Both the position numbers and the translations under genes were made by a program. From NCBI RefSeq assembly GCF_030580675.1, contig NZ_JAUQUB010000007.1, positions 1 to 62,520 of the forward strand: a stretch of 62,520 nucleotides of DNA, read 5' to 3'. The notes below the pieces were generated by a model. It was not told where the DNA came from and did no database searches. It worked only from the letters and a program-made list of their open reading frames with translations. Positions 8,600 to 62,170 of the stretch are shown here, one piece after another. Origin of the DNA: Antiquaquibacter soli. GTDB taxonomy: Bacteria > Actinomycetota > Actinomycetes > Actinomycetales > Microbacteriaceae. Each line of letters opens with the position of its first letter. The first letter of the stretch is position 1.

Positions 8600-8609
8600 A
8601 TGTATACAT
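8600..8609. promoter_or_regulatory. GntR operator, distal
   Basis: ATGTATACAT is a perfect 10-bp palindrome with the same TGTATACA core as the proximal site. Together the two sites probably bracket the prp promoter and permit cooperative repression. Confidence 0.65.
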
Positions 8610-8636
8610 CCCCGCGCGGGCGAGAGGGCCCTCCCT

Positions 8637-8722: not shown

Positions 8723-8781
8723 GTGGACAGGGTCAGGTCAGGTCAGGGAGGGGGGACAGGGGCGGGGACGAGGGATGGTCG

Positions 8782-9267
8782 CTAGGTGCGCGCCAGCCAC
8801 TCCCGCAGGATGCGCTCGAGGGTCGCGCGGTCACGCTCCGGCACCTCCGCGAGGAGCCGCTGCTCGTTCGCCATGTGGTCGGCGAATGCCGCGTCGATCA
8901 CCTCTCGACCGCGATCGGTGAGGGCGACAACCCGGGCGCGGCCGTCGTGCTCGGATGCCCGCCGGGACACGAGCCCGGCATCCTCGAGCCGATCGACGCG
9001 CTTCGACATCGCCCCCGTGGTCACCATGGTGTGGTCGGCGAGCTCGCCCGGCGCGAGCTCGAACGGATGCCCCTGCCGGCGCAGCGCGGCGAGCACGTCG
9101 AACTCCCCCTCCCCGAGCCCGTGCTGCCGGTACACCGCGACGAGCTCGTCCGTGAGCCGGTTCGCGAGCCGATGCAGTCGGCCGATGACGCCGAGCGGCG
9201 CGACATCGAGGTCGGGGCGCTCGCGGCGCCACTGCTCCTGGATGCGAGAGACGTGGTCGGGGGTCAT
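8782..9267 (-). CDS. MarR-family transcriptional regulator
   Basis: The 161-aa protein has a winged helix with FDVLAALRRQG, TTGAMSKRVDRLEDAGLV and the wing motif RRASEHDGRARVVALTDRG. MarR dimers usually bind palindromes and release on binding small ligands. The start is ATG 9267, preceded by a TATTAT -10 box at 6 nt (leaderless). It is divergent from an EamA transporter and shares a 40-bp promoter region with it; it is most likely the repressor of that transporter and of itself. Confidence 0.88.
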   Translation of the reverse strand: MTPDHVSRIQEQWRRERPDLDVAPLGVIGRLHRLANRLTDELVAVYRQHGLGEGEFDVLAALRRQGHPFELAPGELADHTMVTTGAMSKRVDRLEDAGLVSRRASEHDGRARVVALTDRGREVIDAAFADHMANEQRLLAEVPERDRATLERILREWLART

Positions 9268-9272
9268 CCGTC

Positions 9273-9306
9273 CATAATATCTTCCTCGGAAGCTATAGTA
9301 GCTTCC
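9273..9306. promoter_or_regulatory. divergent leaderless promoters with MarR operator
   Basis: GGAAGCTA-TAG-TAGCTTCC (9288-9306) is a 19-bp inverted repeat. It covers the TATAGT -10 box (9294-9299) of the EamA gene and ends at the base before its ATG. On the other strand TATTAT (9279-9274) lies 6 nt before the MarR ATG. Binding here would block transcription and the start codon of the transporter directly. Confidence 0.7.
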
Positions 9307-10185
9307 ATGGAAACTAAATGGCGGTGGATGCTCGTGACCGCGATCGCCCCCGTCGCGTGGGGCTCCACGTATATCGTGACGCGCGAACTGCTGCCCGCAG
9401 ACCAGCCGCTGTGGGGAGCGTTCATCCGCGCGCTGCCGGCGGGCCTCATCCTGCTCGCCCTCGTACGCCGCCGCCCGCACGGGTCGTGGTGGTGGAAGTC
9501 ACTCGTGCTCGGCGTGCTCAACATCGGGGCGTTCTTCGTGCTCGTGTACCTCGCGGCGCAGCTGCTGCCGTCGAGCGTGGCCTCCACGGTCATGGCGACC
9601 TCAGCGGGGGTTATCCTGCTGCTGGCCTGGCCGATCCTGCGGCAGCATCCCACGTGGCTGTCGCTCGCGGGGGCGCTCGTGGGGTTCGCCGGGGTCGTCG
9701 TCATGCTCTCCCCGGGCGGCGCCGACGTGAACCCGTGGGGCGTCGTCGCCTCTCTCGCCGCGATGTGCTGCTCCTCCGTCGGCTTCCTGCTCGCGCGTCG
9801 CTGGAGCGGGGATGCCCCCATCCTTGCGACCACCGCCTGGCAACTGCTCGCAGGCTCCGTACTACTCGCCCCCGTCGCCGTCCTGGTCGAGGGCCCTCCG
9901 CCGTCGCCGACCCCGGGCTCCGTCGTCGGCTTCGCCTACATCACCCTCATCGGCACGGCGCTCGCCTTCGTGGCATGGTTCACCGGACTGAAGCACCTGC
10001 CTGCGGGCGTCGTCGGCGTGGTGGGTCTCCTCAACCCGGTAACCGGCGTCCTGCTCGGCACTCTCGTCGCCGGTGAGTCGCTCACGGCGCTTCAAGGGCT
10101 GGGCATCCTGCTCGTGCTCGGGGGTGTCGGGCTGGGCAGCGCTAGATCGCCTGGGCGACGACGCGAGCCAGCCGCTTCCCGATGA
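9307..10185 (+). CDS. EamA/DMT-superfamily transporter
   Basis: The 292-aa membrane protein has two EamA halves and about ten hydrophobic helices. WGSTYIVTRELLP near the N-terminus and TLIGTALAFVAWFTGLKHLP near residue 215 are typical of YedA/RhaT-like drug/metabolite exporters. The ATG at 9307 follows the MarR operator without any leader. The 3' end overlaps the convergent hydrolase gene by 44 bp. The substrate is unknown; control by MarR suggests efflux of a toxic compound. Confidence 0.87.
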   Translation: METKWRWMLVTAIAPVAWGSTYIVTRELLPADQPLWGAFIRALPAGLILLALVRRRPHGSWWWKSLVLGVLNIGAFFVLVYLAAQLLPSSVASTVMATSAGVILLLAWPILRQHPTWLSLAGALVGFAGVVVMLSPGGADVNPWGVVASLAAMCCSSVGFLLARRWSGDAPILATTAWQLLAGSVLLAPVAVLVEGPPPSPTPGSVVGFAYITLIGTALAFVAWFTGLKHLPAGVVGVVGLLNPVTGVLLGTLVAGESLTALQGLGILLVLGGVGLGSARSPGRRREPAASR

Positions 10186-44525: not shown

Positions 44526-45566
44526 TCACACCGCCCGCGTCGACTCGCGCACCACGAGCGTCGTCGGCAGCGGGGTGGTCTCGGTCGCGGTATCGGGCTC
44601 CTCGATCGCGATGAGGACCTTCTGCATGACGAGGCCGCCGAGGGATGCGAAGTCCTGGCGCACCGTCGTCAGGGGCGGCAGCAGGTACGCAGCCTCGGGC
44701 ACGTCGTCGAACCCGACGATGCTCACATCCTCGGGAACGCGGAGCCCCCGGGCGTGCAACGCCGAGACGAGCCCGAGCGCCATGTAGTCGTTCGCCGCAA
44801 AGACGGCGGTGCCGGGCTCGATGCCCTCGAGCTGCATGCCGAGTTCGAAGCCGGACTTGGCCGACCAGTCGCCGTGGCTCACCTCCCCCACGACGAGGCG
44901 GTGGGCGGTCATCTCGTCGCGCCAGCCGCGCAGCCGCTCGATCGCGTCTGGCGCCTCCGTGGGGCCGGCGAGGTGCACGATCGACCGGTGGCCGAGCTCG
45001 ATGAGGTGGCGCGTCGCGGCACGCGCCCCCCGGTACTGGTCGATCGAGACGATCGCGGGGCTGCGCCGCGAAGTCGCGACAACGGCGACGAGCGGGATGC
45101 TCAGCTCGAGTCCGAGCACGACGTCGAGCACCGCGATGTCCGAGACGACGAGCACGATCGCGTCCACGCGCTGCCGCAGGAGCGATTCGACGATCGCCCG
45201 GACACCGGAGGGGTCGGAGTCGAGCGCGCTCACGGTGTCGACGCTGAAACGGGCTGCGCGTGCGGCGATGTTGAAGTTGACCGCGATCGACGTCGGACCG
45301 TACTCGGAGCGACCGGGAGTGATGAGGCCGATCGTGCGCGTGCGCCGGGTGACGAGGGCGCGCGCCGCGGGCGACGGACTGTAGCGCAGCTGCGCGATCG
45401 CTTGCTCGACCCGCGCCTTCGTCGCGGGGCGCACGTTCGGCACGTTGTTGAGGACGCGGGACACCGTCTGGTGGGAGACCCCTGCGAGCCGGGCGACGTC
45501 GAAGATGTTGGCGGCGCGGGCCGGCTTGTCGTCGCCGCTGCGCCCGCCGGTCTCACTCACCGTCAT
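44526..45566 (-). CDS. LacI-family regulator of the sugar ABC operon
   Basis: The 346-aa protein has the LacI headpiece (IFDVARLAGVSHQTVSRVLN, NVRPATKARV) and a periplasmic-binding-type sensor domain. Its start overlaps the stop of the second ATPase gene by 14 nt, so it is the last gene of the ytf-like operon. It probably binds repeated ATGTTAG-N2-TTCACAT sites ahead of ytfQ or the paired GTAACGT boxes. Ligand is unknown, perhaps galactofuranose or a related sugar. Confidence 0.9.
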   Translation of the reverse strand: MTVSETGGRSGDDKPARAANIFDVARLAGVSHQTVSRVLNNVPNVRPATKARVEQAIAQLRYSPSPAARALVTRRTRTIGLITPGRSEYGPTSIAVNFNIAARAARFSVDTVSALDSDPSGVRAIVESLLRQRVDAIVLVVSDIAVLDVVLGLELSIPLVAVVATSRRSPAIVSIDQYRGARAATRHLIELGHRSIVHLAGPTEAPDAIERLRGWRDEMTAHRLVVGEVSHGDWSAKSGFELGMQLEGIEPGTAVFAANDYMALGLVSALHARGLRVPEDVSIVGFDDVPEAAYLLPPLTTVRQDFASLGGLVMQKVLIAIEEPDTATETTPLPTTLVVRESTRAV

Positions 45567-47079
45567 CGGGCTGCGCGATCATCGCGAGGAGGGAGTCGAC
45601 GGTCAGCGCGTCGCTCTGCAGAGTGGCGACCGCTCGCCCGTCGCGGAGCAGAGTGATGCGAGAGGACACCCTCAGGACCTCCTCGAGCTCCGCTGAGATG
45701 AAGACGACAGACATCCCATTGTCGGCCAATTCGCCGACGAGCCGTTGCACCTCGACCTTCGCGCCGATGTCGATTCCGCGGGTGGGCTCGTCGAGCACGA
45801 GGATGCGCGGGGCGAGGGCCAGCAACCTGGCGAGCAGCACCTTCTGCTGGTTGCCGCCGGAGAGCGTGCCCGCGAGCTGCTCGGTGGAGGAGGGACGGAT
45901 GCCGAGCGCCTCGATCCAGCTGGCGGCGAGTTCCTTCTGCCGGGAGTGCCTCATCCGCCGGAAGATCCCGCGCTGGGCCTGCAGCGCGAGGGTGATGTTC
46001 TCGCGCACGGTCAGCTCGCCGATGATGCCCTCGGTGCGCCGGTTCTCCGACGAGTACGTGAGCCCGTACCCGATGGCGCGGCGGGGGTTGCGCGGCGAGA
46101 TCACGACGCCATCGAGGGCGATGGTGCCGTCATCCGGCCGGTCGATGCCGGTGAGGAGCCGGGCCACCTCGGTGCGGCCGGAGCCGAGCAGCCCCGCGAG
46201 ACCGAGCACCTCCCCCTCCGCGAGAACGAGGTCGACGCCCTCGAGTCGGCCGCGGCCGAGGCCGCGCACGTCGAGCATCGCTTCCTCGCCCGACTCGACC
46301 GGTTCCGAGCGAGGCCGCACGACGAGCTCGTCGGCAGAGCGTCCGAGCATCTTCTGCACGAGGTCGATGCGCAGCAGCTCCCGCGTGAGGTACTCCCCCA
46401 CGAGCTTGCCGCCGCGCAGCACCGTCACCCGGTCGCAGATCTCGTAGACCTGGTCGAGGAAGTGGGAGACGAAGAGGATCGCCACCCCGCGCTCCTTGAG
46501 CTCGCGGATCACCCGGAACAGCTCCGCGACCTCGTCGAGGTCGAGGCTCGAGGTGGGCTCGTCGAGCACGAGCACCTTCACGTCGGCCGAGATCGCGCGC
46601 GCGATGGCGATGAGCTGCTGGATGGCGAGCGAGTGGCTGGAGAGCGTCGAGGCCGGGTCCACGTCGAGCCCGAGTTCGCCGAGCACGGCCGCGGCCTCCC
46701 GCCGCATCGCCTTCCAGTCGATCGCGCCCCACCGTCGCGGCTCCCGGCCGAGGAGGATGTTCTCCGCGACGCTCAGGTTCGGCAGCAGATCGATCTCCTG
46801 GTAGACGGTGCGGATGCCCGCCCGTTGCGCGTCCGCGGGAGAGCCGAAGTGCACCGGCTCCCCGTCGAGGACGATGTCACCGGCATCCAGTCGCAGCGCT
46901 CCCGTGAGCCCCTTGATGAGGGTGGACTTGCCCGCGCCGTTCTCCCCCATGAGCGAGTGGACCTCGCCCGGGAACATCCGGAAGTCGACGCCGTCGAGCG
47001 CCGTCTCGGCCAGGAAGCGCACCGTGGCTCCCGTGACCTCGACGACCGGTCGCGCGTCGTCACTCACAGGCACCATCAT
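45553..47079 (-). CDS. second sugar ABC ATPase (RbsA/MglA-type)
   Basis: The 508-aa protein holds two ABC domains: Walker A GENGAGKSTLIKGL in the first, a degenerate GLLGSGRTEVARLL in the second, and LSGGNQQKVLLAR. It is a full-length paralogue of the ATPase at 49172-50716. The operon encodes only two permeases and one binding protein, so the extra ATPase is unexpected. The start at 47079 is followed by further in-frame start codons within a few residues, so the exact N-terminus is unsure. Confidence 0.88.
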   Translation of the reverse strand: MMVPVSDDARPVVEVTGATVRFLAETALDGVDFRMFPGEVHSLMGENGAGKSTLIKGLTGALRLDAGDIVLDGEPVHFGSPADAQRAGIRTVYQEIDLLPNLSVAENILLGREPRRWGAIDWKAMRREAAAVLGELGLDVDPASTLSSHSLAIQQLIAIARAISADVKVLVLDEPTSSLDLDEVAELFRVIRELKERGVAILFVSHFLDQVYEICDRVTVLRGGKLVGEYLTRELLRIDLVQKMLGRSADELVVRPRSEPVESGEEAMLDVRGLGRGRLEGVDLVLAEGEVLGLAGLLGSGRTEVARLLTGIDRPDDGTIALDGVVISPRNPRRAIGYGLTYSSENRRTEGIIGELTVRENITLALQAQRGIFRRMRHSRQKELAASWIEALGIRPSSTEQLAGTLSGGNQQKVLLARLLALAPRILVLDEPTRGIDIGAKVEVQRLVGELADNGMSVVFISAELEEVLRVSSRITLLRDGRAVATLQSDALTVDSLLAMIAQPDDGE

Positions 47080-47112
47080 GCCCGCCCGGAGCGCCGATCG
47101 ACCACCCGCGGT

Positions 47113-48132
47113 CTACCGTCTACTGGACCGCGCGACGATGATGCGCTGCACCACGACGAACAGCAGCAGCAGCGCGCCGATCGTGATGCGGGTCCAGGAC
47201 TGCTCGGCGCCGAGGAACGAGATGACCGTCTTGATCGACCCGTACACGAGCACGCCGATCATCGAGCCGAGCACGTAGCCGCTCCCGCCCGTGAGCAGCG
47301 TGCCGCCGATGACGACGGCGGCGATCGTGTCGAGCTCCGTGCCGATGCCGTTGAGCGGGTACGACGCCCCGGTGTAGGCGGTGAACACCACCCCGGCGAG
47401 GCCCGCGCACACGCCGCTCACGACGTAGGCGAGGAGCTTGGTGCGCACCACCGGGAGACCCATCAGCCGGGCGGACTGCTCGTTGCCGCCGATCGCATAG
47501 ATCGTGCGGCCGAAGCGCGTGTAGGCGAGCAGGAGCGCGCCCACGATCACGACGAGGATCGCGAGGATGCCCGTCGGCGTGATGAACCAGCTGCCCGGTG
47601 CCGCCTGGATGCGCGTCGACTGCAGCCACAGGATCGCCGGGTCCTCGACGCGGATCGACGACAGGCTCACCATGAAGGCCAGCCCCCGCGCGGCGAACAT
47701 CGCGGCGAGCGACGCGATGAACGGCTGCACGTCGAAGTACTGCACCATGATGCCGACTGCGAGCCCCATGGCCGCCCCGATGAGGAGCATCACCGGCACC
47801 ACCACGCCGACGGGGAGCCCGTCGCGGAGCAGGCTCGCGCCGAGCATCCCGGTGAAGGCCATCACCGCGCCGACCGAGAGGTCGATGCCGCCGGTGAGGA
47901 TGACGAAGGTCATGCCCACGGCGAGGATCAGCAGGTACGCGTTGTCCAGCAGGAGCGAGGAGATCACTCGCGGCGTGAGGAAGTTGCCGAAGTACGCCTG
48001 GGCTCCGATGAACATCACGATGAGGATCGCGAGGGCGGCGAGCACGGGGATCCACGAGGCGCGCCTCGAGAAGAAGCGGCGCAGCGCACCCGACGCGGAT
48101 GCCCGCTCCACGGTTACCGGGATGCCGGTCAT
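47113..48132 (-). CDS. yjfF: sugar ABC permease (YjfF-like)
   Basis: The 339-aa BPD_transp_2 protein has about eight to ten helices with LTGGIDLSVGAVMAFTGML, the family core signature. In E. coli YtfT and YjfF form the heterodimeric galactofuranose permease. ATG overlaps the upstream permease stop (ATGA). Confidence 0.88.
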   Translation of the reverse strand: MTGIPVTVERASASGALRRFFSRRASWIPVLAALAILIVMFIGAQAYFGNFLTPRVISSLLLDNAYLLILAVGMTFVILTGGIDLSVGAVMAFTGMLGASLLRDGLPVGVVVPVMLLIGAAMGLAVGIMVQYFDVQPFIASLAAMFAARGLAFMVSLSSIRVEDPAILWLQSTRIQAAPGSWFITPTGILAILVVIVGALLLAYTRFGRTIYAIGGNEQSARLMGLPVVRTKLLAYVVSGVCAGLAGVVFTAYTGASYPLNGIGTELDTIAAVVIGGTLLTGGSGYVLGSMIGVLVYGSIKTVISFLGAEQSWTRITIGALLLLFVVVQRIIVARSSRR

Positions 48133-49175
48133 GAGGCCACCTCCGAGCCGCCCTGCGGCGACGAGTTGCGGGGGCGCAGCGCCTGGGAGGCGCGCGCGAG
48201 GACGGAGCGCAGCCGGGGCGACTGCACGAGGACGACGATCACGACGACGATCGCGAGGAAGAGCGGGCTCACCGCGGGCGGGACCCCGAGAAACGTGATC
48301 GTCGACTTGAGCGTCTGGATCGTGAAGACCCCGACCACGGTTCCCGCGAGGCTGAACTTGCCGCCCATGAGGGAGGTGCCGCCGAGCACGACGGCGAGGA
48401 TGGCGTCGAGCTCGATGTAGAGACCGGCGGCATTCGCATCCGCCGCCATGATGTTGGAGCTGTACAGGATGCCCGCGAGCCCGGCGAGCAGTCCGCTCGC
48501 CGCGTAGGCGCCCCAGATGATGCCGCGCGAGCGCACCCCCGCGAGTCGGCTCGCCTCGGGGTTGATGCCGACCGCCTCGGTCAGCACGCCGAGCGCGGTG
48601 CGCCGCTCGAGGAGGGCGACGACGACGACCGCCGCCATCGACACGTAGAGCGCGAACGGCAGGCCGAGCACGTAGCCCTGGGCCATGAACTTGTAGGGCT
48701 CGCTGTTGATGGTCGTGATGAAGCCGCCCGTGATGAGGAGCGCTATCCCGCGGCCGGCGAGCATGAGCACGAGCGTGGCGATGATCGGCTGGATGCCGAC
48801 GACGGCGACGAGGAAGCCGTTCCAGACGCCGAGGACCAGGGCGACGAGCACACCCACGACGATCGCGACGAGGACGGTGCCGAGCCCGTTCGGGTCCGAC
48901 GAGCCCTCGATGATCGTGAGCGCGACCGCCCCCGACACCGCCATCACAGCGCCGACGGAGAGATCGATGCCGCGAGTCGCGATGACGATCGTCATGCCGA
49001 GCGCGACGAGCATGAGCGGCGCGGAGTTGCGCAGGATGTCGATGAGCGGCCCGTACAGCTGACCGCCCTGCACCGTGATGCTGATGAACGACGGTCGCGC
49101 GATCGTGTTGATCACGATGAGGGCGACGAGGGCGAGCACCGGCCAGAACAACCGGTTCTTGAGGATGCGTTTCAT
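48129..49175 (-). CDS. ytfT: sugar ABC permease (YtfT-like)
   Basis: The 348-aa protein has IATRGIDLSVGAVMAVSGAV and a hydrophobic core like its partner. It lies directly after the ATPase in the same order as E. coli ytfQ-ytfR-ytfT-yjfF. ATG 49175 overlaps the ATPase stop (ATGA). Confidence 0.88.
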   Translation of the reverse strand: MKRILKNRLFWPVLALVALIVINTIARPSFISITVQGGQLYGPLIDILRNSAPLMLVALGMTIVIATRGIDLSVGAVMAVSGAVALTIIEGSSDPNGLGTVLVAIVVGVLVALVLGVWNGFLVAVVGIQPIIATLVLMLAGRGIALLITGGFITTINSEPYKFMAQGYVLGLPFALYVSMAAVVVVALLERRTALGVLTEAVGINPEASRLAGVRSRGIIWGAYAASGLLAGLAGILYSSNIMAADANAAGLYIELDAILAVVLGGTSLMGGKFSLAGTVVGVFTIQTLKSTITFLGVPPAVSPLFLAIVVVIVVLVQSPRLRSVLARASQALRPRNSSPQGGSEVAS

Positions 49176-50716
49176 GCCACGTTCTCCGGGCTCTCGAGTG
49201 CCCCGTCGGCGATGAAATCGACGAGGTCTCCGACTTCGATGTCGTGCGAGGTCAGCTCGCCGATCTTACGACGATCGCGCATCACGACGACACGGTGCGC
49301 GAGGCGCAGCACCTCCTCGAGCTCCGAGGAGATGAAGACGACGGACATCCCCTGGGCGGCGAGCTCGGCGACCTTGCGCTGGATGTCGGCCTTCGCGCCG
49401 ACGTCGATGCCGCGCGTCGGCTCGTCGAGGATGATGAGCTGCGGCGCCGTCGCCAGCCAGCGCGCGAGCAGCACCTTCTGCTGGTTGCCGCCGGAGAGGT
49501 TCTTGATGAGCCGGTTCGGGTCGGCAGGTCGCACCCCGAGGGCGGCGATGTACTCGTCGACGAGCGCGGCCTGCTCGGCGCGGCCGACCTTGCGCAGCCA
49601 GCCCCGCTTCGCCTGGATGCCCAGCACGATGTTCTCCGCGACCGAGAGGTCGCCGATGATGCCCTCGGCACGGCGGTCCTCCGAGGAGAACGCGATGCGC
49701 TGGTCGATCGCGTGCCGCGGGGTGGTGATGCGGGCGGGCGTGCCCCGCACCTGCGTCGAGCCGGAGTCGGCGCGGTCGGCGCCGTACAGCAGTCGCGCGA
49801 GCTCGGTGCGGCCGGAGCCGAGGAGGCCGGCGAAGCCCACGACCTCGCCGTCGTACACGCTCACGTCGGCGGGCTCGAGAACGCCCTTGCGACCGAGGTC
49901 GCTCGCCTCGAGAACGGGGGCCGCGTCCCGGTCGATCTCACGGGCGGCGCTGCGGGAGAGCGCGTCGAGCTCATCGAGCTCGCGGCCGATCATGAGCGAG
50001 ATCAGTTCGCCGCGCGGCAGCTCCGCCGCGGGGTACTCGCCGACGAGCATCCCGTTGCGCAGCACCGTGAGGCGATCGGAGATCTCGTAGACCTGGTCGA
50101 GGAAGTGGGTGACGAAGAGGATGGCGACTCCGCGATCGCGTACGTCGCGCATGACGGCGAAGAGCTGCTCGACCTCGCTGCGGTCGAGGCTCGAGGTCGG
50201 CTCGTCGAGCACGAGCACGCGGGCCTCGCCCACCATCGCGCGGCTGATCGCGACGAGCTGCTGGATGGCGATCGAATGGGTGGACAGCGCCGAGCGGGTG
50301 TCGATGTCGAGACCGAGGTTGGTGAGGTGACGGGCGGCCTCGCGATGGGTGGCCTTCCAGTCGATGAGCCCGGCGCGGCGCACCTCATGGCCGAGCATGA
50401 CGTTCTCGCCGACCGAGAGGTTCGTACAGAGGTTGACCTCCTGGTACACGGTCGAGATGCCGGCGGCCTGGGCATCCGCCGTACCGCGGAAGACACGCTG
50501 CTCCCCCGCGACGGTGATGGTGCCGCCGTCGATCGGGTAGACGCCGGTGAGCGCCTTGATGAGCGTCGACTTGCCGGCGCCGTTCTCGCCCATGAGGGTG
50601 TGGACCTCGCCGGAGCGGAGGACGAAGTCGACTCCGTCGAGCGCCTTGACGCCCGGGAACTGGATGGTGATGCCGCGCATCTCGACGATGGCGGGCTGCG
50701 CGGGGGCCGCGGTCAT
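49172..50716 (-). CDS. ytfR: sugar ABC ATPase (YtfR-like)
   Basis: The 514-aa protein has two ABC domains: GENGAGKSTLIKAL and a degenerate GLLGSGRTELARLL, with LSGGNQQKVLLARWLATAPQ. It is the primary ATPase, placed between binding protein and permeases. Degeneracy of the second Walker A is normal in this family. A 90-bp gap separates it from ytfQ. Confidence 0.9.
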   Translation of the reverse strand: MTAAPAQPAIVEMRGITIQFPGVKALDGVDFVLRSGEVHTLMGENGAGKSTLIKALTGVYPIDGGTITVAGEQRVFRGTADAQAAGISTVYQEVNLCTNLSVGENVMLGHEVRRAGLIDWKATHREAARHLTNLGLDIDTRSALSTHSIAIQQLVAISRAMVGEARVLVLDEPTSSLDRSEVEQLFAVMRDVRDRGVAILFVTHFLDQVYEISDRLTVLRNGMLVGEYPAAELPRGELISLMIGRELDELDALSRSAAREIDRDAAPVLEASDLGRKGVLEPADVSVYDGEVVGFAGLLGSGRTELARLLYGADRADSGSTQVRGTPARITTPRHAIDQRIAFSSEDRRAEGIIGDLSVAENIVLGIQAKRGWLRKVGRAEQAALVDEYIAALGVRPADPNRLIKNLSGGNQQKVLLARWLATAPQLIILDEPTRGIDVGAKADIQRKVAELAAQGMSVVFISSELEEVLRLAHRVVVMRDRRKIGELTSHDIEVGDLVDFIADGALESPENVA

Positions 50717-50806
50717 GGTTGTTCGATCCCTCTGTCGGTGGCGTGGCCGCCGGGGCCGAGCGGATGCCCGGCCCCGGCGGTCACGGGTGATGGAGCTGAC
50801 CGTCCG

Positions 50807-51772
50807 TTAGTACGGGCGGGTCGGGAGCAGCTCGATCGCGTCCTCCTGGGTGAACGCGCCGTCCGGCACGATGTAGGCCTTGTCGACCGATTCGCCCGCG
50901 AGCACCTTCTTGACGAGGTCGGCGACCTGGTCGCCGAGGAGCGGGTTGCACTCGACGATGTAGTTGAACTCGCCGTCGGCGAGGGCCTGCATGCCGTCCT
51001 TGACCGCGTCGATCGTGACGATCTTGATGTCCTCACCGGGCGTGAGGCCAGCGGCCTTGATCGCGTCGAGCGCGCCGAGCCCCATGTCGTCGTTGTGCGC
51101 GAACAGAACCTGGATCTCGCTGCCGTACTTCTGCAGGAAGCCCTCCATGACCTTCTTGCCGCCGTCGCGGGTGAAGTCGCCGGTCTGCGAGTCGAGCACG
51201 TTGATGGACGTGCCGTCGATCGCCTCGGCGAAGCCCGTGGCGCGGTCGAGCGCGGCGGACGAACCCGTCGTGCCCTCGAGGATCACGAGGTTGGTGGGCT
51301 CGGCGCCGAAGTTGTCGGCGACCCACTCACCGGCGGTCTTGCCCTCCTGCTTGAAGTCGAGGCCGACCCACGTGGCATACAGGTCGTCGCTCGCGCTGAC
51401 CGTGCGGTCCTCGAGGATGACGGGGATGCCCGCGTCCTTGGCCTCCTTGAGCACGTCGTCCCAGCCGTCGACCGTGATGGGCGCGATGACGATCGCGTCG
51501 ACGCCCTGGTTGATGAAGCTGCGGACGGCGGCGATCTGCGCCTCCTGCTTGTTGTCGGCCGCGTTGAAGATCAGCTCGAAGCCGTTCTCCTCCGACAGCG
51601 CCGCCTTGAGCGACTCCGTGTTGGCGCTGCGCCAGCCGCTCTCCGAGCCGGTCTGCGCGAAGCCGACGGTGATGAGGTCGTCGTCGCCGCCTCCGCCCGT
51701 GTTGGCTGCGCAACCGGTCAGCGCGAGTGCCGCGATGCCGAGGGCTGCGATTCCACCGAGAACTCTCTTCAT
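50807..51772 (-). CDS. ytfQ: sugar ABC substrate-binding lipoprotein (YtfQ-like)
   Basis: The 321-aa protein has a lipobox (ALALTGC) and closely follows the YtfQ pattern: TVGFAQTGSESGWR, QGVDAIVIAP, DSQTGDFTRDGGKKVMEGFL, and FAHNDDMGLGAL. YtfQ of E. coli binds galactofuranose with high specificity. AAGGAGG precedes the ATG at 51772. The signature residues are well kept, so a furanose sugar is the likely ligand. Confidence 0.9.
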   Translation of the reverse strand: MKRVLGGIAALGIAALALTGCAANTGGGGDDDLITVGFAQTGSESGWRSANTESLKAALSEENGFELIFNAADNKQEAQIAAVRSFINQGVDAIVIAPITVDGWDDVLKEAKDAGIPVILEDRTVSASDDLYATWVGLDFKQEGKTAGEWVADNFGAEPTNLVILEGTTGSSAALDRATGFAEAIDGTSINVLDSQTGDFTRDGGKKVMEGFLQKYGSEIQVLFAHNDDMGLGALDAIKAAGLTPGEDIKIVTIDAVKDGMQALADGEFNYIVECNPLLGDQVADLVKKVLAGESVDKAYIVPDGAFTQEDAIELLPTRPY

Positions 51773-52092
51773 TCCCAAAACCTCCTTGTTCGGGCCCGGC
51801 CGAGCCGGGTGCGTGGTGTCAAGTCCTGCCGCGCACGCGAATGGCGTCATCGACATTGGACCAAATGTTAGCCTTCACATTCGAGTGCGGCGCAAGTCCG
51901 AAATGTAACGTTTCGGTAACGTGGCCCGGGAATCAGGCAAGTTTCGCGGTCACGGCGACCGTCGCTGGTGGCCGCCCGGGAACTGATGTGATGGCTGCGT
52001 GAGCCTTCACATCGTGATGTTAGGGTTCACATCAACAATTCCGGTCTATTTCGGCGAAACCGCGCGCTGACCGGCTCTTTTGGTGAGCTGGC
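51773..52092. promoter_or_regulatory. 320-bp control region of the ytf-like operon
   Basis: No ORF is credible here. ATGTTAG-N2-TTCACAT occurs at 51865-51880 and 52017-52032, and AGCCTTCACAT recurs at 52002-52012, making three TTCACAT sites. GTAACGT is repeated at 51905-51911 and 51916-51922, 11 bp (one turn) apart. GATGTGA (51985) pairs with TCACATC (52007) as a larger inverted repeat. These are likely LacI and possibly a second regulator's operators. The start of the SDR-free region begins with AAGGAGG of ytfQ. Confidence 0.6.
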
Positions 52093-54679: not shown

Positions 54680-54686
54680 ACACCGG

Positions 54687-54759
54687 TGGACCCTAGGGGA
54701 TTTGAACCCCTGACCTCCTCGATGCGAACGAGGCGCGCTACCAACTGCGCCAAGGGCCC
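54687..54759 (-). tRNA. tRNA-Ala (anticodon CGC)
   Basis: The 73-nt cloverleaf folds fully: acceptor GGGCCCT/AGGGTCC, D-arm GCGC/GCGC, anticodon stem CCTCG/CGAGG with loop TTCGCAT, and T-arm AGGGG-TTCAAAT-CCCCT. The anticodon is CGC. Base pair G3-U70, the alanine identity element, is present. CCA is not encoded. It reads GCG codons, common in this high-GC DNA. Confidence 0.97.
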
Positions 54760-54844: not shown

Positions 54845-55306
54845 GTGACCACCGAGCACTCGATCCGCCTCCACTCGGCCCAGCCCACCCCGTACACGTG
54901 GGAGGGGGTCGACGTGCTCGAGTACAAGGAGGAGGACGGTACCTTCAAGGCGGTCACGCGCCAGGTGCTCACCGACGCGGAGCACGGGCAGGGGGCGTCC
55001 TTGCGCTACTTCGAGGTCGGGCCGGGTGGGCACACGACCCTCGAGCACCACGAGCACACGCACGTCGTCGTCCCGATCCGCGGTCGCGGCCGGGCGCTCG
55101 TGGGCACCCAGGTCGTCGACCTCGCCCAGCACGACGTGGTGTTCGTCCCCTCGTGGACGTGGCACCAGTTCCAGTCGGTCGGCGACGAGCCGTTCGGCTT
55201 CCTGTGCAGCGTCACCGTCGAGCGCGACCGACCGGTGCGGCCGACGGCCGAGCAGATCGCCGAGCTCGAGTCGTACCCGGGCGTGGGCGGGTTCATCAAG
55301 TACTAG
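54845..55306 (+). CDS. cupin protein adjoining the RuBisCO-like gene
   Basis: The 153-aa single-domain cupin has metal ligands in GGHTTLEHHEHTH (residues 61-73) and His107 in PSWTWHQF, with GFLCSVTVERDRP after it. It converges on the RLP gene with a 24-bp gap. In Rhodospirillum rubrum a cupin acts after the RLP, splitting methylthioxylulose-5-phosphate into DXP and methanethiol. Same role is inferred here from context and general fold. GTG 54845 is leaderless (TAGCAT, 6 nt). Confidence 0.75.
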   Translation: MTTEHSIRLHSAQPTPYTWEGVDVLEYKEEDGTFKAVTRQVLTDAEHGQGASLRYFEVGPGGHTTLEHHEHTHVVVPIRGRGRALVGTQVVDLAQHDVVFVPSWTWHQFQSVGDEPFGFLCSVTVERDRPVRPTAEQIAELESYPGVGGFIKY

Positions 55307-55330
55307 ACGGCGAGCGCCGCCTCGAGAGCC

Positions 55331-56428
55331 TCAGCGAACGGTCTGGGCAGCCTCCAGGAACGCCTCCGCCGACGCCCGCAGGTCTCCCCCGCGGTGCAGG
55401 TCGCTGCCGATGAGCAGCAGCACGTCGCGGCCGTAGAGCTCCACGAGCTCGCCGATGCGGTCGACCGACATGCCTCCACCGGGAGCGGGAAGGGATGCCT
55501 CGAGCCCGGCGAACGGGCGCCGGGACTGCTCGGCGATCCCCCGGCACTGCTCCACCGTGAGGCTGAAGCGCCCGCCGGCGGACGGGAAGATCACCGTGTC
55601 GGCGCGAGCGAGCCGCATGATCGGGCCGAAGAGCACCTCCGGCGAGATGCCGTGCGTCGACGACGCGGTGAAGCCGCCGAGGAACGACGGGTGCGCCATG
55701 ATGATGGCGTCCTCGGGCAATACGGTCGCGGCGAAGCGCACCGAGTCGAAGCCGGTGACACCGGGCATGAGGAGCACGCCGTCGGCACCGGCATCCGCCG
55801 CGAAGCGCAACCGCTCCTCGAACTGCTCGAACGGGCCGGCCACCGCGGGGAAGTAGCGCGCCCGGCGGCCGGAGGCAGCGTTCGTCTCGCGCACCGCTTC
55901 GGTGACCCGCAGCACTCGCTCGCGGAAGGGTGCCCACGGCTGATTCGCGAGGCCCTGGTCGTCCTTGATGACGTCGAGGCCCCAGGCGAGCTTGGACGCC
56001 ATGGCGGCGAGGTCGGCGGGCTCGAGGCCGACGGGCTTGAGCGCGGTCGCGAGGAGCGGGCGGTCATCCACTCCGAGAACGCGGCGGATGCCCGCCGCCC
56101 CCAGCGGCGGACCGCCGCCCACGGCGGCCGCGAGCGACTCCGGCACCTCGAGCTCCACGAGGCGGATTCCGTCCTGGAGCGACACGTTGCCGATGAGGTG
56201 CACGAGCAGCTGGGCGAGCTCGCCGCCGGCGAGCTCCTCGGGGTACTCGACGACGGCGGTGTCGAACTCGGAACCAGCCTCGAACGAGACGACGTGGGCG
56301 AGCGAGCGCAGGGCGGGCTCCGGCGCGAGGTCGGTGGGCAGTTCGTGGCTCTGCTCGACGGCGAGGGCCTCGGCCCGGGCGCGGCGGTCGTCGCCGCGGA
56401 TCTCATAGGTCGCGACGATCGCGCTCAT
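55331..56428 (-). CDS. RuBisCO-like protein (form IV), methylthioribulose-phosphate pathway
   Basis: The 365-aa protein has the RuBisCO large-subunit barrel with Lys131 (ALKPVGL), the LDVIKDDQ segment (151-158, Lys155 aligned with the carbamylated Lys201) and GGGM (317-320). Gln158 replaces the metal-binding Glu of true RuBisCO, and loop-6 Lys is absent, so CO2 fixation is not expected. RLPs act as enolases or isomerases on methylthioribulose phosphates. It overlaps mtnA (ATGA). Without mtnB nearby, an isomerase role on MTRu-1-P is favoured. Confidence 0.85.
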   Translation of the reverse strand: MSAIVATYEIRGDDRRARAEALAVEQSHELPTDLAPEPALRSLAHVVSFEAGSEFDTAVVEYPEELAGGELAQLLVHLIGNVSLQDGIRLVELEVPESLAAAVGGGPPLGAAGIRRVLGVDDRPLLATALKPVGLEPADLAAMASKLAWGLDVIKDDQGLANQPWAPFRERVLRVTEAVRETNAASGRRARYFPAVAGPFEQFEERLRFAADAGADGVLLMPGVTGFDSVRFAATVLPEDAIIMAHPSFLGGFTASSTHGISPEVLFGPIMRLARADTVIFPSAGGRFSLTVEQCRGIAEQSRRPFAGLEASLPAPGGGMSVDRIGELVELYGRDVLLLIGSDLHRGGDLRASAEAFLEAAQTVR

Positions 56429-57402
56429 GCCTGTACCGCCTTCGCGATGGAGTCCGAGTACGGCGCGCGCAGGATGCCCGCCTCCGTGATGATGCCGGTG
56501 ATGAGCTCGGCGGGCGTCACATCGAAGGCGGGGTTCCAGACGCGCACGCCCTCGATAGGGGTGTCGAGCACCTCGTCAGCCGAGCGCTCCTCGATCTCGA
56601 TGTCCGCGCCGGAGGCGGTGCTCGGATCGATCGCGTTGAGGGTCGCCGCGACGTAGAAGGGCACCCCTTCGCGCGCAGCCGCGACCGCGAGCGACCGCGT
56701 CCCCACCTTGTTCGCCGTGTCGCCGTTCGCCGCGATGCGGTCGGCCCCGACGATCACCGCGTCGACGCGACCGGTGCCGAGCGCAGCTGCGGCCGCCGAG
56801 TCGACGAGCAGCTCGACGTCGATGCCCGAGGCCGCGAGCTCCCACGCGGTCAGCCGCGCGCCCTGCCGGAGCGGCCGGGTCTCCGTCGCGAGCACGGTGA
56901 GCGGCCGACCGGACTCGTGGATCGCATAGGCGACCCCCAGCGCCGTGCCCCATCCGGTAGTCGCGAGGCGGCCGGTGTTGCAATGGGTCAGGATGACTCG
57001 GGCCCCCGCGAGCTCGTCGCGGCCGAGCTCCCCGATCCGCCGCGTCTGCTCGTCGTCCGCCGTGAGGAGCCCGAGAGCGACGCCGAGCGGGTCCCGTCCG
57101 GCGTGGTACGCGTCGAGCGCGAGCCCGACGGCGACGCGGAGATTGACCGCGGTGGGCCGCGCGGCGATGAGGCGTGCGGCCGTGTCATCCGCGTCGAGCC
57201 CGGCCCGCACACCCAGCACGAAGCCGAGCGCTCCCGCCGAGCCGATCACGTTCGCGCCGCGCACCGCGAGCGTCGCGATCGCGTCGACGACCTCGTCGAC
57301 CGTCGCGAGGTCGCGCACCGAGAGCTGCCCTGGCAGGAGGCGCTGGTCGATGATGCGCACGGCATCCCCCGTCCAGCCGACGGAGGCGGGAAGGGCGCTC
57401 AC
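56425..57402 (-). CDS. mtnA: S-methyl-5-thioribose-1-phosphate isomerase
   Basis: The 325-aa protein has the MtnA active-site features: catalytic Cys141 in THCNTGRLATTG, Asp221 in VGADRIAANGDTANKVGT. RGANVIGSAGALG replaces the usual RGAPAIG segment. It converts MTR-1-phosphate to methylthioribulose-1-phosphate. GTG 57402 overlaps the mtnK stop (GTGA). It is clearly MtnA and not eIF2B because of the kinase neighbour. Confidence 0.9.
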   Translation of the reverse strand: MSALPASVGWTGDAVRIIDQRLLPGQLSVRDLATVDEVVDAIATLAVRGANVIGSAGALGFVLGVRAGLDADDTAARLIAARPTAVNLRVAVGLALDAYHAGRDPLGVALGLLTADDEQTRRIGELGRDELAGARVILTHCNTGRLATTGWGTALGVAYAIHESGRPLTVLATETRPLRQGARLTAWELAASGIDVELLVDSAAAAALGTGRVDAVIVGADRIAANGDTANKVGTRSLAVAAAREGVPFYVAATLNAIDPSTASGADIEIEERSADEVLDTPIEGVRVWNPAFDVTPAELITGIITEAGILRAPYSDSIAKAVQA

Positions 57403-58595
57403 AGTCCCAGGCCCGCGGCGGTGCGCTCGGCGAGTTGCGCCGGGGTCGCGACGAGCTCGCGGCCTTCGACCCACGCGCGCGCGGTGTGCAGCACCGCCGT
57501 CGCGGCCGCCACGTGCTGACTCGGGTCCAGGGATTGGATATCGGATGCCTTGGCGAGGCCGACGATGCGCCGGATGGCTTTGAGCCCGCCGAACCCGACG
57601 GCGTCCTGCCACGTCGAGCGCAACCACTCCTCGAGCACCGCATCGGAGAAGAACGGGTCCACGCGCGACGGCCAGAGCCGTCGGAACTCGCTCTCGAAGG
57701 ACGACCAGGTCTCCCCCACGAGTCCGGCGAGCCATCCCTGGAACTCTGCGGGCCGCTCGAGGACCACTGAGCGGGCCTGGGCGAGGAGGGTGTTGCCGAA
57801 GAACGCGCCCAGGTCGAAGCCGACCGGCCCGTAGAACCCGAACTCGAGGTCGAAGATCTTCGCGGGCGACTCGGAGGGCCCGTTCGGGACGAAGACCGAG
57901 CCGGTGTGCAGGTCGCCGTGCAGGAGCGCCTCGGAGCGCGTCATGAACGTGTACTTGAGGGCGGCGGCGTGATCGGTGAGCTCGCCCTCGCGCAGCGCGA
58001 GCACCGCGTCCTCGAGCTCGGGCACCCACGAGTTGCCGTCGTGGTCGACGTAGGGGTGGGTGAAGACGAGGTCCTCGGTGATCTTGCAGAGGTCGGGGTT
58101 GGCCGCACCGGCGCGGGCGGCGATGAGGGCATCCGATTCGAGTCCGAACGCCGAGGTGCCGAACGCGACCCGGGCGACGTGGCGGCCGATGACCGCGGCC
58201 GCGCCGGGCGAGATGCGGCCCTCGTTGAGGGCGCGACGCCATACCGTCCAGCCCGAGAGGTCCTCCATCGCGATCGTTCGCGACTCGACGTCGAGGCCGA
58301 AGTAGGCGGGGATCGTGTCAGGACTGTGGGCGACCGCGGCGTCGTAGCCGCGGCCCTCGGCGAGGATCCGGTCCTGGCTGAGCGGCCACGACTCCCCCAC
58401 GAGGCGCACGTACGGGAGCGACTGCTTCAGGGTGATGGAGCGGCCCGAGGCATCCCTCGCGATGAAGACGAGGTTGAGGTTGCCGTCGCCGACCTCGATG
58501 ACGGAGAGCGTCGATGGGTCGACCTGTGCCGCGAGGTGGGGCCGCGCCGCGATGTACTCGGGAACGGTCGCGACGGTGAGCACCGGGACGGTCAC
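57399..58595 (-). CDS. mtnK: 5-methylthioribose kinase
   Basis: The 398-aa APH-fold kinase has GDGNLNLVF (36-44), Lys57 in LKQSLPYVR, HGDLHTGS (226-233) and FDLEFGFYGPVGFDLGAF with metal-binding Asp249. These are MtnK signatures. It makes MTR-1-phosphate with ATP. GTG 58595 directly follows the permease stop, so MTR import and kinase are co-translated. Confidence 0.9.
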   Translation of the reverse strand: MTVPVLTVATVPEYIAARPHLAAQVDPSTLSVIEVGDGNLNLVFIARDASGRSITLKQSLPYVRLVGESWPLSQDRILAEGRGYDAAVAHSPDTIPAYFGLDVESRTIAMEDLSGWTVWRRALNEGRISPGAAAVIGRHVARVAFGTSAFGLESDALIAARAGAANPDLCKITEDLVFTHPYVDHDGNSWVPELEDAVLALREGELTDHAAALKYTFMTRSEALLHGDLHTGSVFVPNGPSESPAKIFDLEFGFYGPVGFDLGAFFGNTLLAQARSVVLERPAEFQGWLAGLVGETWSSFESEFRRLWPSRVDPFFSDAVLEEWLRSTWQDAVGFGGLKAIRRIVGLAKASDIQSLDPSQHVAAATAVLHTARAWVEGRELVATPAQLAERTAAGLGL

Positions 58596-59600
58596 TTAAG
58601 AATCCTTACGCTTGAACAGGCCCGAGAAGCTGAGCACGAGGGCTCCGAGCAGGAGGAGCCCCTTGATGAGGTCCTGGGTGTAGTACGGCAGGTTCATCAT
58701 GGTCAGTCCGTTGAGGACGACGCCGACGAAGATGGCCCCCACCACGGTACCGAAGCCGTTGGCCTTGTTCGCCCCGAGCACGGCGAAGCCGATGAGCGCG
58801 GCGGCGACGGTCTCCAGCAGGTAGCCGCCGCCCACGCCGACGTCTCCTCGGCCGAGGCGCGCGGTGAGCAGGATGCCTCCCACCGATGCCAGCACGCCGG
58901 AGATCGCATAGGCGAGCACCTTGTTGCGCCCCACGTGCACTCCCGCGAGCCGCGCCGCCTCGGGGTTGCCGCCGATCGCGCCGAACAGCCGGCCGGTGCG
59001 GGTGCGGGAGAGCAGGAGCGTGACGGCGACGCCGAGCACCACCATGACCACAACGGTGATCGGGATGCCCAGCACCGTGCCACGACCGAGCCACAGGAAC
59101 TCCGGGCTGATCGAGCCGGGTGCGGGCTGTCCGTCGATCGTCGAGCCGGTCGAGACGGACTGGCCGGATGTGAGCACGAGAGCGAGTCCCGCGAACACGA
59201 ACATCGTGGCGAGAGTCGCGAGCAGGTCGGGCACGCGCGCGACGACGACGAGGAAGCCGTTCACGAGACCGATGCCGAGGCCCGCGAGCAGACCCAGCAG
59301 CACGGCCACCCAGGGGCCGAGGCTCCAGTAGACCTGGGCGGCGGCGGTGAGCATGACGACGAACGAGATCGTCGAGCCGATCGAGAGGTCGAAGCCGTTG
59401 ACCGAGAGGGAGACGGTGACACCGAGAGCGACGATCGCGGTGATCGCGACCGACTGCAGGATGATGAGCACGTTGCGCCACGTGCCGAACGACGGCTGGG
59501 TCGCGGCGAAGAAGACCACCAGTACGACGAGCAGCACGAGAAGGCCGTAGCGGTAGACGAGGTCGCGGACGCGGTCGCGCGCCGACAGGGTGGAGGTCAT
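58596..59600 (-). CDS. sugar-type ABC permease of the MTR locus
   Basis: The 334-aa BPD_transp_2 protein has SLSVNGFDLSIGSTISFVVML, and hydrophobic helices throughout. It is the only permease gene, so it probably forms a homodimer, as in ribose systems. ATG 59600 overlaps the ATPase stop (ATGA). Confidence 0.88.
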   Translation of the reverse strand: MTSTLSARDRVRDLVYRYGLLVLLVVLVVFFAATQPSFGTWRNVLIILQSVAITAIVALGVTVSLSVNGFDLSIGSTISFVVMLTAAAQVYWSLGPWVAVLLGLLAGLGIGLVNGFLVVVARVPDLLATLATMFVFAGLALVLTSGQSVSTGSTIDGQPAPGSISPEFLWLGRGTVLGIPITVVVMVVLGVAVTLLLSRTRTGRLFGAIGGNPEAARLAGVHVGRNKVLAYAISGVLASVGGILLTARLGRGDVGVGGGYLLETVAAALIGFAVLGANKANGFGTVVGAIFVGVVLNGLTMMNLPYYTQDLIKGLLLLGALVLSFSGLFKRKDS

Positions 59601-61144
59601 GAGACGGTCCTCTGGTGGGGGTGGGAGGCGGCGGCGACCATGAGCTGCGCGAGCCCCTCGACGTCGGTGCCGCGCGGGTCGATCTCGGCGACGAGCTCGC
59701 CGTCGCCGAAGACGAGGATGCGGTCCGCGACCTCGAGGATCTCCTCCGGGTCGCTCGAGGCGACGACGGAGGCAAGCCCGACGCCGGACCGCAGGAGTGC
59801 AGCCAGGTCGGCTCGCGCGCCGAGATCGACGCCGCGGAACGGCTCATCGAGCACGAGCACCCTCGAGCCGGCGGCGATCCATCGCCCCACGATCACCTTC
59901 TGCCGGTTGCCTCCCGAGAGCGAGCGGAGGGCTGCGCGCGGCCCGCTCGCGACGACCCGCAGCGTCTCGATCACGAGTCGCGCGGCCTGCGTCTCGCGGG
60001 CCCGGCTCAGCAGTCCCGCGCGGCGGTAGCGGCGCAAGTCGGGCAGCGTGATGGTGTCGGCGATGTCCCAGTCGCCAATCTCCGCCGAGGCGCGGCGGTC
60101 CTCGGGAACGAACCCGATACCCGCGGCGACGGCGTCGGCGGGATGACGCGGCGCATGCTCGTGCCCGAGCAGGGTCATCCGGCCGCTCTGCAGCCGTGCC
60201 GCACCGACGACCTGCAGGAGCAGCTCCGTCTTGCCCGCCCCGAGGAGTCCGGTGATGCCGAGCACCTCACCCTCGCGGACGGCGAGGTCGAACGGTGCCG
60301 CGTCCGGTGCGGTGCGGACGCCCTCGAGGGCGAGCACGACTCGGTCGGTCGTGGCGCGGGAGTCGGAGGGCCGCTGCGTCGCGAGTCCGCCGAGCATCGC
60401 CGTGACAACCGCGGAGGGGTCGACCGGGGCGGCGAACTCGCCGGCGACGCGGCCTTCGCGCAGGGCGACGACGCGGTCGCAGATCGCGGCGATCTCGGCG
60501 AGGTGGTGGGTGATGTAGATGATGGCGGTCCCCTCCGCGGCGAGGGACCGCAGGCGGTCGTGGAGCTCCCGCTGCTCCGTCACCGAGAGGGCCGCGGTCG
60601 GCTCATCCAGGATGAGCACGCGGGCGCCGCGGTGCAGGGCTCGAGCGATGAGCAGCTGCTGCTTGCGGGATGTCCCGAGCGATCGCACCGGCACGTCGAG
60701 GTCGGCGGCTCCCGGGAGCACCTCCTCGGCACGGCGCCGAACCGAACGGGGGCTCACCCACGGTCCCAGTTCGCCGGCCGCCACTGCGTCGAGGACGAGG
60801 TTCTCGGCGACGGTGAGGTCGAGCACGAGCGCCTGGTCGACGTCCTGGTGCACGGTCGCGATGCCGGCGCGCGCGGCCTCGTCCGGGTCGGCGAAGTCGA
60901 CGACCGCGCCCTCGATCTCGAGGCGACCGTCGGTAGTGCGGATCGAGCCGGACAGGATTCCGATGAGCGTCGACTTGCCGGCGCCGTTCGCACCGACGAG
61001 TCCGACGATCTCTCCGGGCTGGAGCGAGAAGTCGACCCCGTCGAGTGCGCGGGTCGAGCCGAACTGCTTAACGACCGAATGGGCCGAGAGCACGGGCGTT
61101 GCGCCCGGTGCTCCCGACCCGTTCGGCGACGTGGTTCGGGGCAT
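59597..61144 (-). CDS. sugar-type ABC ATPase of the MTR locus
   Basis: The 515-aa protein has two ABC domains with GANGAGKSTLIGIL and GLLGAGKTELLLQV. The second Walker A keeps its Lys, unlike the two ytf ATPases in this window. The C-signature LSGGNRQKVIVGRW is present in the second half; the first half has LGTSRKQQLLIAR, degenerate. It is 6 bp behind the binding-protein gene. Confidence 0.9.
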   Translation of the reverse strand: MPRTTSPNGSGAPGATPVLSAHSVVKQFGSTRALDGVDFSLQPGEIVGLVGANGAGKSTLIGILSGSIRTTDGRLEIEGAVVDFADPDEAARAGIATVHQDVDQALVLDLTVAENLVLDAVAAGELGPWVSPRSVRRRAEEVLPGAADLDVPVRSLGTSRKQQLLIARALHRGARVLILDEPTAALSVTEQRELHDRLRSLAAEGTAIIYITHHLAEIAAICDRVVALREGRVAGEFAAPVDPSAVVTAMLGGLATQRPSDSRATTDRVVLALEGVRTAPDAAPFDLAVREGEVLGITGLLGAGKTELLLQVVGAARLQSGRMTLLGHEHAPRHPADAVAAGIGFVPEDRRASAEIGDWDIADTITLPDLRRYRRAGLLSRARETQAARLVIETLRVVASGPRAALRSLSGGNRQKVIVGRWIAAGSRVLVLDEPFRGVDLGARADLAALLRSGVGLASVVASSDPEEILEVADRILVFGDGELVAEIDPRGTDVEGLAQLMVAAASHPHQRTVS

Positions 61145-61150
61145 CCGTTC

Positions 61151-62170
61151 TTACGGTACCGGCACCAGATCGGGCGTCGCGAGCTCCGGGAACGCCTCCG
61201 TGAGGCCCTGGATGGTCGTCACGCCCTTCTCGAGAAGACCGGCCTGCGTGATGAGGGTCGGCGGGATCTCGATTGCGGACGGCACGTCGCCCCCGGTGGC
61301 CGCGAGGTAGGCGGCGCGGATGGTGACGGCACCGACGTTCGCCGGGTCGGTCGCGGCCGTCGCCACCCAGGGGCTGCCCTCCGCGGTGATGACCTCGATG
61401 TCGGCGGTGGAGATGTCGGCGCCGTACACCTTCACGGTGTCCTCGAGGCCGAGCTCCTGGATGGCGAGGGTCGCGCCCTTCGCGAACTCGTCGTACGGCG
61501 CGAAGATCGCCGTGACGCCGGGGTTCGCCTGGAGCGCGGCCTTGGCCTGCTCCGCGACCTCGACGGCGGTGTTCTCGTTGACGACACCGATCTGGGCGAC
61601 CTGGTTGAGGCCGGGGTTGTCAGCGAGGGTCTCCTGCCAGACCGCGTCGCGGCGGTCGAGCGGGGCGAAGCCCGCGACGTAGACGTAGATGACGTCGGCC
61701 TCACCTGCCGTGTCCTCCACGAGCTGGCCGAGCACCTGCTCGGCGAGCACGGCGTCGGACTGGGCGACGGTCACAGCGCGGTCGTCTCCGGCGTCGACGT
61801 CGAACGCGACGACGGGGATGTCGGCGTCGAGCGCGGCCGCGATGGGCGCCTGGACGGTCTCCGCGAAGCCGTGCGAGATGGCGATCGCGTCGACGCCCTC
61901 CCCGGTCGCGGCCTCGATGTCGATGGCCTGCTGGGCGTCGTCACCGTTCGCCTCGTAGATGGAGAGGTTGACGCCGAGACGGTCGGCCTCGGCCTTGGCG
62001 CCGGCAAGCCAGAGCTCGAAGTAGTCGCCCGAGCTGAGCTGGCGCACGAGCGCGATGTCGACGGCGTCGTCGGAGCCGCCGCCGTTGTCGGCGGGCGCGG
62101 AGCACGCGGTCAGCGCGAGCGCTGACACGGCGAGTGCCGCGACGGGAAGGAAGGCGGAGCGGAGCTTCAT
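61151..62170 (-). CDS. substrate-binding lipoprotein, probable methylthioribose receptor
   Basis: The 339-aa type I periplasmic-binding protein has a lipobox (ALALTAC), GVDAIAISHGF and VVAFDVDAGD, typical of the RbsB/autoinducer class. AGAGGACG precedes ATG 62170. Being the first gene of an operon with mtnK and mtnA, it probably binds MTR or another 5-modified ribose (for example 5-deoxyribose). This is inferred from context. Confidence 0.87.
   Translation of the reverse strand: MKLRSAFLPVAALAVSALALTACSAPADNGGGSDDAVDIALVRQLSSGDYFELWLAGAKAEADRLGVNLSIYEANGDDAQQAIDIEAATGEGVDAIAISHGFAETVQAPIAAALDADIPVVAFDVDAGDDRAVTVAQSDAVLAEQVLGQLVEDTAGEADVIYVYVAGFAPLDRRDAVWQETLADNPGLNQVAQIGVVNENTAVEVAEQAKAALQANPGVTAIFAPYDEFAKGATLAIQELGLEDTVKVYGADISTADIEVITAEGSPWVATAATDPANVGAVTIRAAYLAATGGDVPSAIEIPPTLITQAGLLEKGVTTIQGLTEAFPELATPDLVPVP

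Follow-up and report, generated by a model that had tools for sequence, protein, structure and literature searches.

What would an actinobacterium do with a RuBisCO-like protein (RLP) encoded in one operon with an ATP-binding cassette (ABC) importer and the methylthioribose enzymes MtnK and MtnA, next to a cupin gene? We addressed this question for Antiquaquibacter soli contig NZ_JAUQUB010000007.1, the whole of which (62,520 bases) is called the window here, and for the genome it belongs to (3.22 Mb in 14 contigs, listed as 100% complete). Judging by homology, the locus quite probably encodes an import-fed variant of the methylthioadenosine (MTA)-isoprenoid shunt, which would serve mainly for sulfur scavenging and release 1-deoxyxylulose-5-phosphate (DXP) as a by-product. 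Receptor, enzymes, absences, co-occurrence, a gene fusion and a sulfhydrylase neighbor converge on this reading, in which 5-methylthioribose (MTR) is imported and then processed by shunt chemistry.

Organization of the locus

The seven genes concerned are listed below from the importer to the cupin.

61151-62170, minus strand: substrate-binding lipoprotein (SBP, the receptor) of a sugar ABC importer, probably for MTR (PF13407)
59597-61144, minus strand: ABC importer ATPase with two ABC stretches (PF00005; best NCBIfam name AraG, below its cut-off)
58596-59600, minus strand: ABC importer permease (PF02653; ribose/arabinose-type NCBIfam names, below their cut-offs)
57399-58595, minus strand: MtnK, 5-methylthioribose kinase (TIGR01767, 364.9 bits vs a cut-off of 275; solved methylthioribose kinase 2olc, E 2e-65)
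56425-57402, minus strand: MtnA, 5-methylthioribose-1-phosphate isomerase (TIGR00512, 337.3 bits vs a cut-off of 279; solved 1t9k, E 1e-75)
55331-56428, minus strand: RLP, predicted 5-methylthioribulose-1-phosphate 1,3-isomerase (PF00016)
54845-55306, plus strand: cupin, predicted 1-methylthioxylulose-5-phosphate methylsulfurylase (PF07883; 3jzv, i.e. Rru_A2000, E 1.7e-42)

By their open reading frames (ORFs) and spacing, the six genes from receptor to RLP form one tight operon on the minus strand (55331-62170), with 6 nt between SBP and ATPase, zero between permease and MtnK, and 4-nt overlaps at the ATPase-permease, MtnK-MtnA and MtnA-RLP junctions. An earlier note on this DNA had described the importer, MtnK, MtnA and RLP genes as tightly chained, and the coordinates bear this out. 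It also had the cupin gene adjoining the locus, which holds for the distance (24 nt from the RLP stop to the cupin stop), but the gene is outside the operon, on the opposite strand and convergent on it. The receptor ORF extends to 62203; we preferred the inner ATG at 62170 because a lipoprotein-like signal, as judged by eye, results. The upstream side of this gene is beyond the contig end.

Receptor and enzymes

The closest match of the receptor is a solved 5-methylthioribose transporter protein, and its runner-up among structures is the Yersinia receptor 5ulb, presumably MtrB; by homology, the receptor thus falls in the MTR-binding group. The genes next to the importer, MtnK and MtnA, both exceed NCBIfam equivalog cut-offs.

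For the RLP, solved structure 3qfw is the top match both by sequence and by model, at ~38% identity. We take 3qfw to be the DeepYkr RLP1 because the title of 2qyg, from the same species, names it rlp2. In a tree with four typed partial reference rows and three long-branch rows, and without the R. rubrum RLP or other described RLP clades, the protein is placed on the side of the Rhodopseudomonas palustris RLP (3QFW), apart from MtnW (branch 100/99). Its best NCBIfam names are MtnW models, at 180 and 130 bits vs cut-offs of 409 and 514 (for TIGR03332, 129.9 vs 513.6), so that it is outside the MtnW group and was scored as DeepYkr-type, neither MtnW nor RuBisCO. It reads KDDQG where 3QFW reads KDDHG and two relatives read KEDQG.

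The top solved match of the cupin, 3jzv, is the methylthioxylulose-5-phosphate cupin Rru_A2000 of Rhodospirillum rubrum. The Rru_A2000 histidines and cysteine are retained, and H69, H71, H73, H107 and C121 are invariant among 12 cupins, which suggests a methylsulfurylase of the Rru_A2000 type.

Background of the host genome

Searches of the host genome yielded no ARD match that could stand for MtnD and no MtnB above its cut-off (top score 68.2 vs 137 bits). Its three class II aldolase-fold proteins are best named, over the matched stretches, L-ribulose-5-phosphate 4-epimerase (AraD-like; two) and aldolase/dehydrogenase (one). Classical methionine salvage was therefore rejected, since neither MtnB nor MtnD was found genome-wide and the RLP is away from MtnW in the tree. 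A Bacillus-type salvage could still be imagined, with the RLP as MtnW enolase and unrecognised enzymes for the missing steps. The MtnW names of the RLP, low as their scores are, speak for it; the two missing genes and the position in the tree speak against it, the linkage of the cupin would be left unexplained, and we regard it as the least probable of all readings considered.

None of the three host PF01048 proteins exceeds an MtnP or MtnN cut-off (best score with the MTAP model 76.8 vs 274.85 bits); their matched stretches are best named uridine phosphorylase (two) and purine nucleoside phosphorylase (one). No match to S-adenosylmethionine (AdoMet) decarboxylase was found in the genome, and MTA from the AdoMet decarboxylase/polyamine route is therefore not expected. 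As no standard MTR-freeing enzyme was found either, import is the likely source of MTR, with promiscuous host enzymes as a possible other one. Dxs is present (588.6 bits vs a cut-off of 465.95). Among the three strong PF01053 proteins, one exceeds the cystathionine gamma-synthase cut-off and two (L074 and L075, located elsewhere in the genome, outside the window) exceed the TIGR01326 cut-off for O-acetylhomoserine sulfhydrylase.

Conservation within the family

We searched a sample of 398 genomes of the family at E <= 1e-10 for the RLP and E <= 1e-15 for the cupin. An RLP was found in 26 genomes: the host itself, 6 with proteins at 55-59% identity, 2 at 40-41% and 17 at <=35%. The cupin occurs in 7, which are exactly the host and the six with a close RLP, and in all 7 it directly follows the RLP gene and is convergent with it, at spacings from a 4-nt overlap to a 266-nt gap. 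The hypergeometric probability of this overlap is 3.4e-15 by genomes and 4.9e-7 by genera (4 of 85), both values ignoring shared descent. All seven genes are present in five of the six close relatives, and flanking genes seem to differ among most of the relatives' loci (L038-L043), being common to the two of one genus (L038 and L039). No shared regulator beside the operon was seen among the ORFs of these loci, which were inspected by eye without a family scan. As a linkage control, 18 distant RLP matches (<=35% identity, in 17 family genomes, with ~1.5 kb of flank; L013-L030) had no MtnK, MtnA or cupin match beside them; the same was true of seven of them when taken with wide flanks (L046-L052), two of which contain generic ABC importer matches.

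Relatives outside the family

Seven related loci were found outside the family. Four, from Bifidobacterium, carry SBP, ATPase, permease, MtnK, MtnA and RLP in identical order, and upstream of all four are a gene for a CoA-binding-domain protein and one for O-acetylhomoserine sulfhydrylase (above cut-off by family scan in L031, which the other three match at 83-99.5%). The earlier note had proposed looking for the same gene set in other Micrococcales; it recurs both within the family and, as six genes, beyond it. In three of the four (L031:2294-3340, L033 and L034) a nucleoside hydrolase gene stands between sulfhydrylase and importer, and its product could perhaps free MTR from MTA. The cupin is present in all four Bifidobacterium genomes: in L032 it adjoins the sulfhydrylase gene, in L033 it is truncated where the stretch ends, and in L031 and L034 it is probably contiguous with the locus, because its coordinates continue those of the locus. 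In L032 (Bifidobacterium psychraerophilum) MtnK and MtnA matches share one 783-codon frame (7561-9912) and are apparently fused. An RLP was found in 2 of 27 genomes of the genus of one of these bifidobacteria.

In an Elusimicrobia metagenome-assembled genome (L036:2690-4270), RLP and cupin domains are fused in one frame of 526 codons, the flagged stop being, by its coordinates, the terminal one. No cupin was found in the Nitrospira and Myxococcales genomes searched.

These data bear on whether the operon imports an unrelated sugar, with the cupin as a bystander. ATPase and permease match generic sugar-importer models only, under cut-offs, as such an explanation would have it; MtnK and MtnA, in contrast, exceed curated cut-offs, the cupin and the close RLP are in the same seven genomes, and the RLP-cupin fusion exists, so that we consider this explanation highly improbable.

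A further alternative concerns 5-deoxyribose, derived from 5'-deoxyadenosine: it would be scavenged through the importer, MtnK and MtnA, and the RLP would convert 5-deoxyribulose-1-phosphate to DXP, MTR being a side substrate. MtnK and MtnA serve both AdoMet by-products. Going by its title, North 2020 reportedly deals with a bifunctional pathway for two such by-products. An RLP acting in this way would yield DXP directly. A CH3S-removing cupin would nevertheless be left idle, yet its gene adjoins the close RLP in all 7 family genomes concerned and occurs in all 4 Bifidobacterium genomes, and the receptor resembles an MTR receptor. We therefore think this alternative unlikely, though less so than the other two.

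A sister clade of RLPs

RLPs at 40-46% identity, two in the family sample and nine in a sample of 394 genomes of the class, cluster together as far as they were placed (9 tree rows, 100/99). Wide flanks were fetched for both family members and seven of the nine class members (nine stretches: L044, L045 with L053, and L090-L096). MtnA and a RhaD-like aldolase/dehydrogenase were each present in 7/9, and a split transketolase, complete or as a single half, was also seen in 7/9. L090 and L094, which have neither MtnA nor the RhaD-like gene, stop near the RLP; L093 and L095, which have no transketolase, do not, and the gene set is therefore not uniform. No cupin match was found in the nine stretches, nor in the genome-wide search, which covered the two family genomes. 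Genomes of this clade are mostly 1.3-2.1 Mb, and L044 and L045/L053 contain importer genes resembling those of the window. The RLP product is possibly processed differently in this clade, which may have another RuBisCO-like catabolic pathway.

Proposed pathway

In the import-fed shunt that we favor, substrates, activities, direction of flux and the actinobacterial thiol are predicted. The ABC importer would take in MTR shed by other organisms, MtnK would phosphorylate it to MTR-1-phosphate, and MtnA would convert this to methylthioribulose-1-phosphate. The RLP would then form 1-methylthioxylulose-5-phosphate by a 1,3-shift isomerization. From this compound the cupin would move the CH3S group onto a cellular thiol, which in this lineage may be mycothiol, and DXP would remain. 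Finally, methanethiol and O-acetylhomoserine would be joined to methionine by a sulfhydrylase, and DXP may enter the methylerythritol phosphate (MEP) or vitamin pathways. Reduced sulfur is probably the chief benefit; we rank it first because the enzyme encoded next to the bifidobacterial genes forms methionine and because the host already has DXP from Dxs.

Most of what the earlier note had proposed from the sequence agrees with this scheme. Methylthioribose uptake is consistent with the receptor homology, which gives no indication of an unrelated sugar, and entry by import plus kinase instead of MtnP with the importer-MtnK operon in a genome where no MtnP was found. Isoprenoid-shunt chemistry is likewise predicted by the RLP, placed apart from MtnW and hence an improbable enolase, and by the cupin with its His and Cys residues kept. 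The genome check it had suggested returned dxs and neither mtnB nor mtnD; its claim of absence stands for these two, the search for MtnC/MtnX having gone no further than the annotation of the listed genes. It had left the outcome between terpenoid precursors and sulfur: the Bifidobacterium sulfhydrylase favors sulfur, and terpenoid feeding is less favored with Dxs present.

Several observations weigh against the proposed pathway. The cupin adjoins the operon without belonging to it, and in the sixth close relative (G159, L039) MtnA, RLP and cupin are present and a gene read as gluconokinase-like lies just upstream of MtnA; importer and MtnK are absent from the 14 kb fetched, the rest of that genome not having been searched for an importer. 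RLP and cupin are absent at the above cut-offs from all nine other sampled genomes of the host genus, and the distribution of the module is patchy. A riboswitch was absent at the gathering threshold from the whole window and from 10 related loci (L031-L034, L038-L043), where the sole matches were two tRNAs, of which L032 and the window have one each. The tree has the four partial reference rows and three long-branch rows given above, and the RLP differs from 3QFW both in overall identity and in the KDDQG/KDDHG motif. Lastly, MTA could be handled by the purine nucleoside phosphorylase (L056) or another enzyme not named MtnP or MtnN, and Dxs makes the DXP output dispensable.

Two neighboring features of the window are a tRNA-Ala gene past the cupin gene (54685-54759) and another sugar ABC importer on the minus strand (44526-51856), YtfQ/YtfR/YtfT/YjfF-like with scores under curated cut-offs, in which two ATPase genes (45553-47079 and 49172-50716) flank two permeases and a LacI-type regulator is present.

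Relation to known systems

The MTA-isoprenoid shunt, as given in parts of PMC5893883 and PMC4958253, comprises MtnP, MtnA, a DeepYkr RLP, a cupin and O-acetylhomoserine sulfhydrylase in R. rubrum and R. palustris. The present locus shares MtnA (over its curated cut-off), a 3QFW-side RLP and a Rru_A2000-like cupin beside it, with sulfhydrylases in the genome. Unlike that shunt, it has an importer and MtnK in the operon with MtnA and RLP, with no MtnP found, and an actinobacterial host, from a group in which mycothiol replaces glutathione (PMC6302742, in part). We class it as a variant because MtnP entry from internal MTA, which was looked for, was not found. Which thiol accepts the methylthio group in cells lacking glutathione is a point raised generally for Actinobacteria and mycothiol in a section of PMC6302742.

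A transporter, MtrACB, that occurs with MtnK/MtnA in Enterobacteria and Bacillus cereus, and is itself a prediction, delivers to MtnB, MtnC, MtnD and MtnE according to a portion of PMC3228920. Our locus likewise joins a probable MTR ABC importer to MtnK and MtnA, and 5ulb comes from Yersinia; it differs in having RLP and cupin downstream instead of MtnB, MtnC, MtnD and MtnE, and no riboswitch. With the MtnW salvage of B. subtilis it has MtnK, MtnA and an RLP in common, although this RLP is outside the MtnW group and MtnB and MtnD were not found. The dihydroxyacetone phosphate (DHAP) shunt (MtnA and the aldolase Ald2) follows the same route as far as methylthioribulose-1-phosphate; the cluster here, by contrast, has no aldolase, though that compound may be a substrate of the three aldolase-fold proteins encoded in the genome.

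Both halves are already described, the MTR importer with MtnK/MtnA in PMC3228920 and the RLP/cupin shunt in PMC5893883 and PMC4958253. RLP and cupin orthologues have also been considered as a Dxs substitute, both occurring in 5 of 181 species missing only Dxs (PMC10663253, in part). Among the matches listed for the open-licence literature, supplements excluded, none shows the importer-MtnK-MtnA-RLP-cupin set in its title or the opening of its abstract, and the set may be in print elsewhere, and no publication there was found pairing 'RubisCO-like protein' with 'Bifidobacterium'.

A wider interpretation, which we judge about evenly balanced, is dedicated cross-feeding: cells with little or no MTA of their own would import the MTR of their neighbors and split it without O2 into methionine sulfur and DXP by means of a cupin adapted to a non-glutathione thiol, and the sister RLPs, whose loci carry a RhaD-like enzyme and, in many cases, a split transketolase in place of the cupin, would represent a further undescribed RuBisCO-like pathway. 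E. coli, an organism without a salvage pathway, excretes methylthioribose (PMC3228920, in part). If our proposal is true, this waste gains takers, some bifidobacteria included, and the isoprenoid shunt is not bound to internal MTA, MtnP or glutathione. The seven-gene set can be expressed and assayed, and the function of such RuBisCO-like proteins becomes directly testable.
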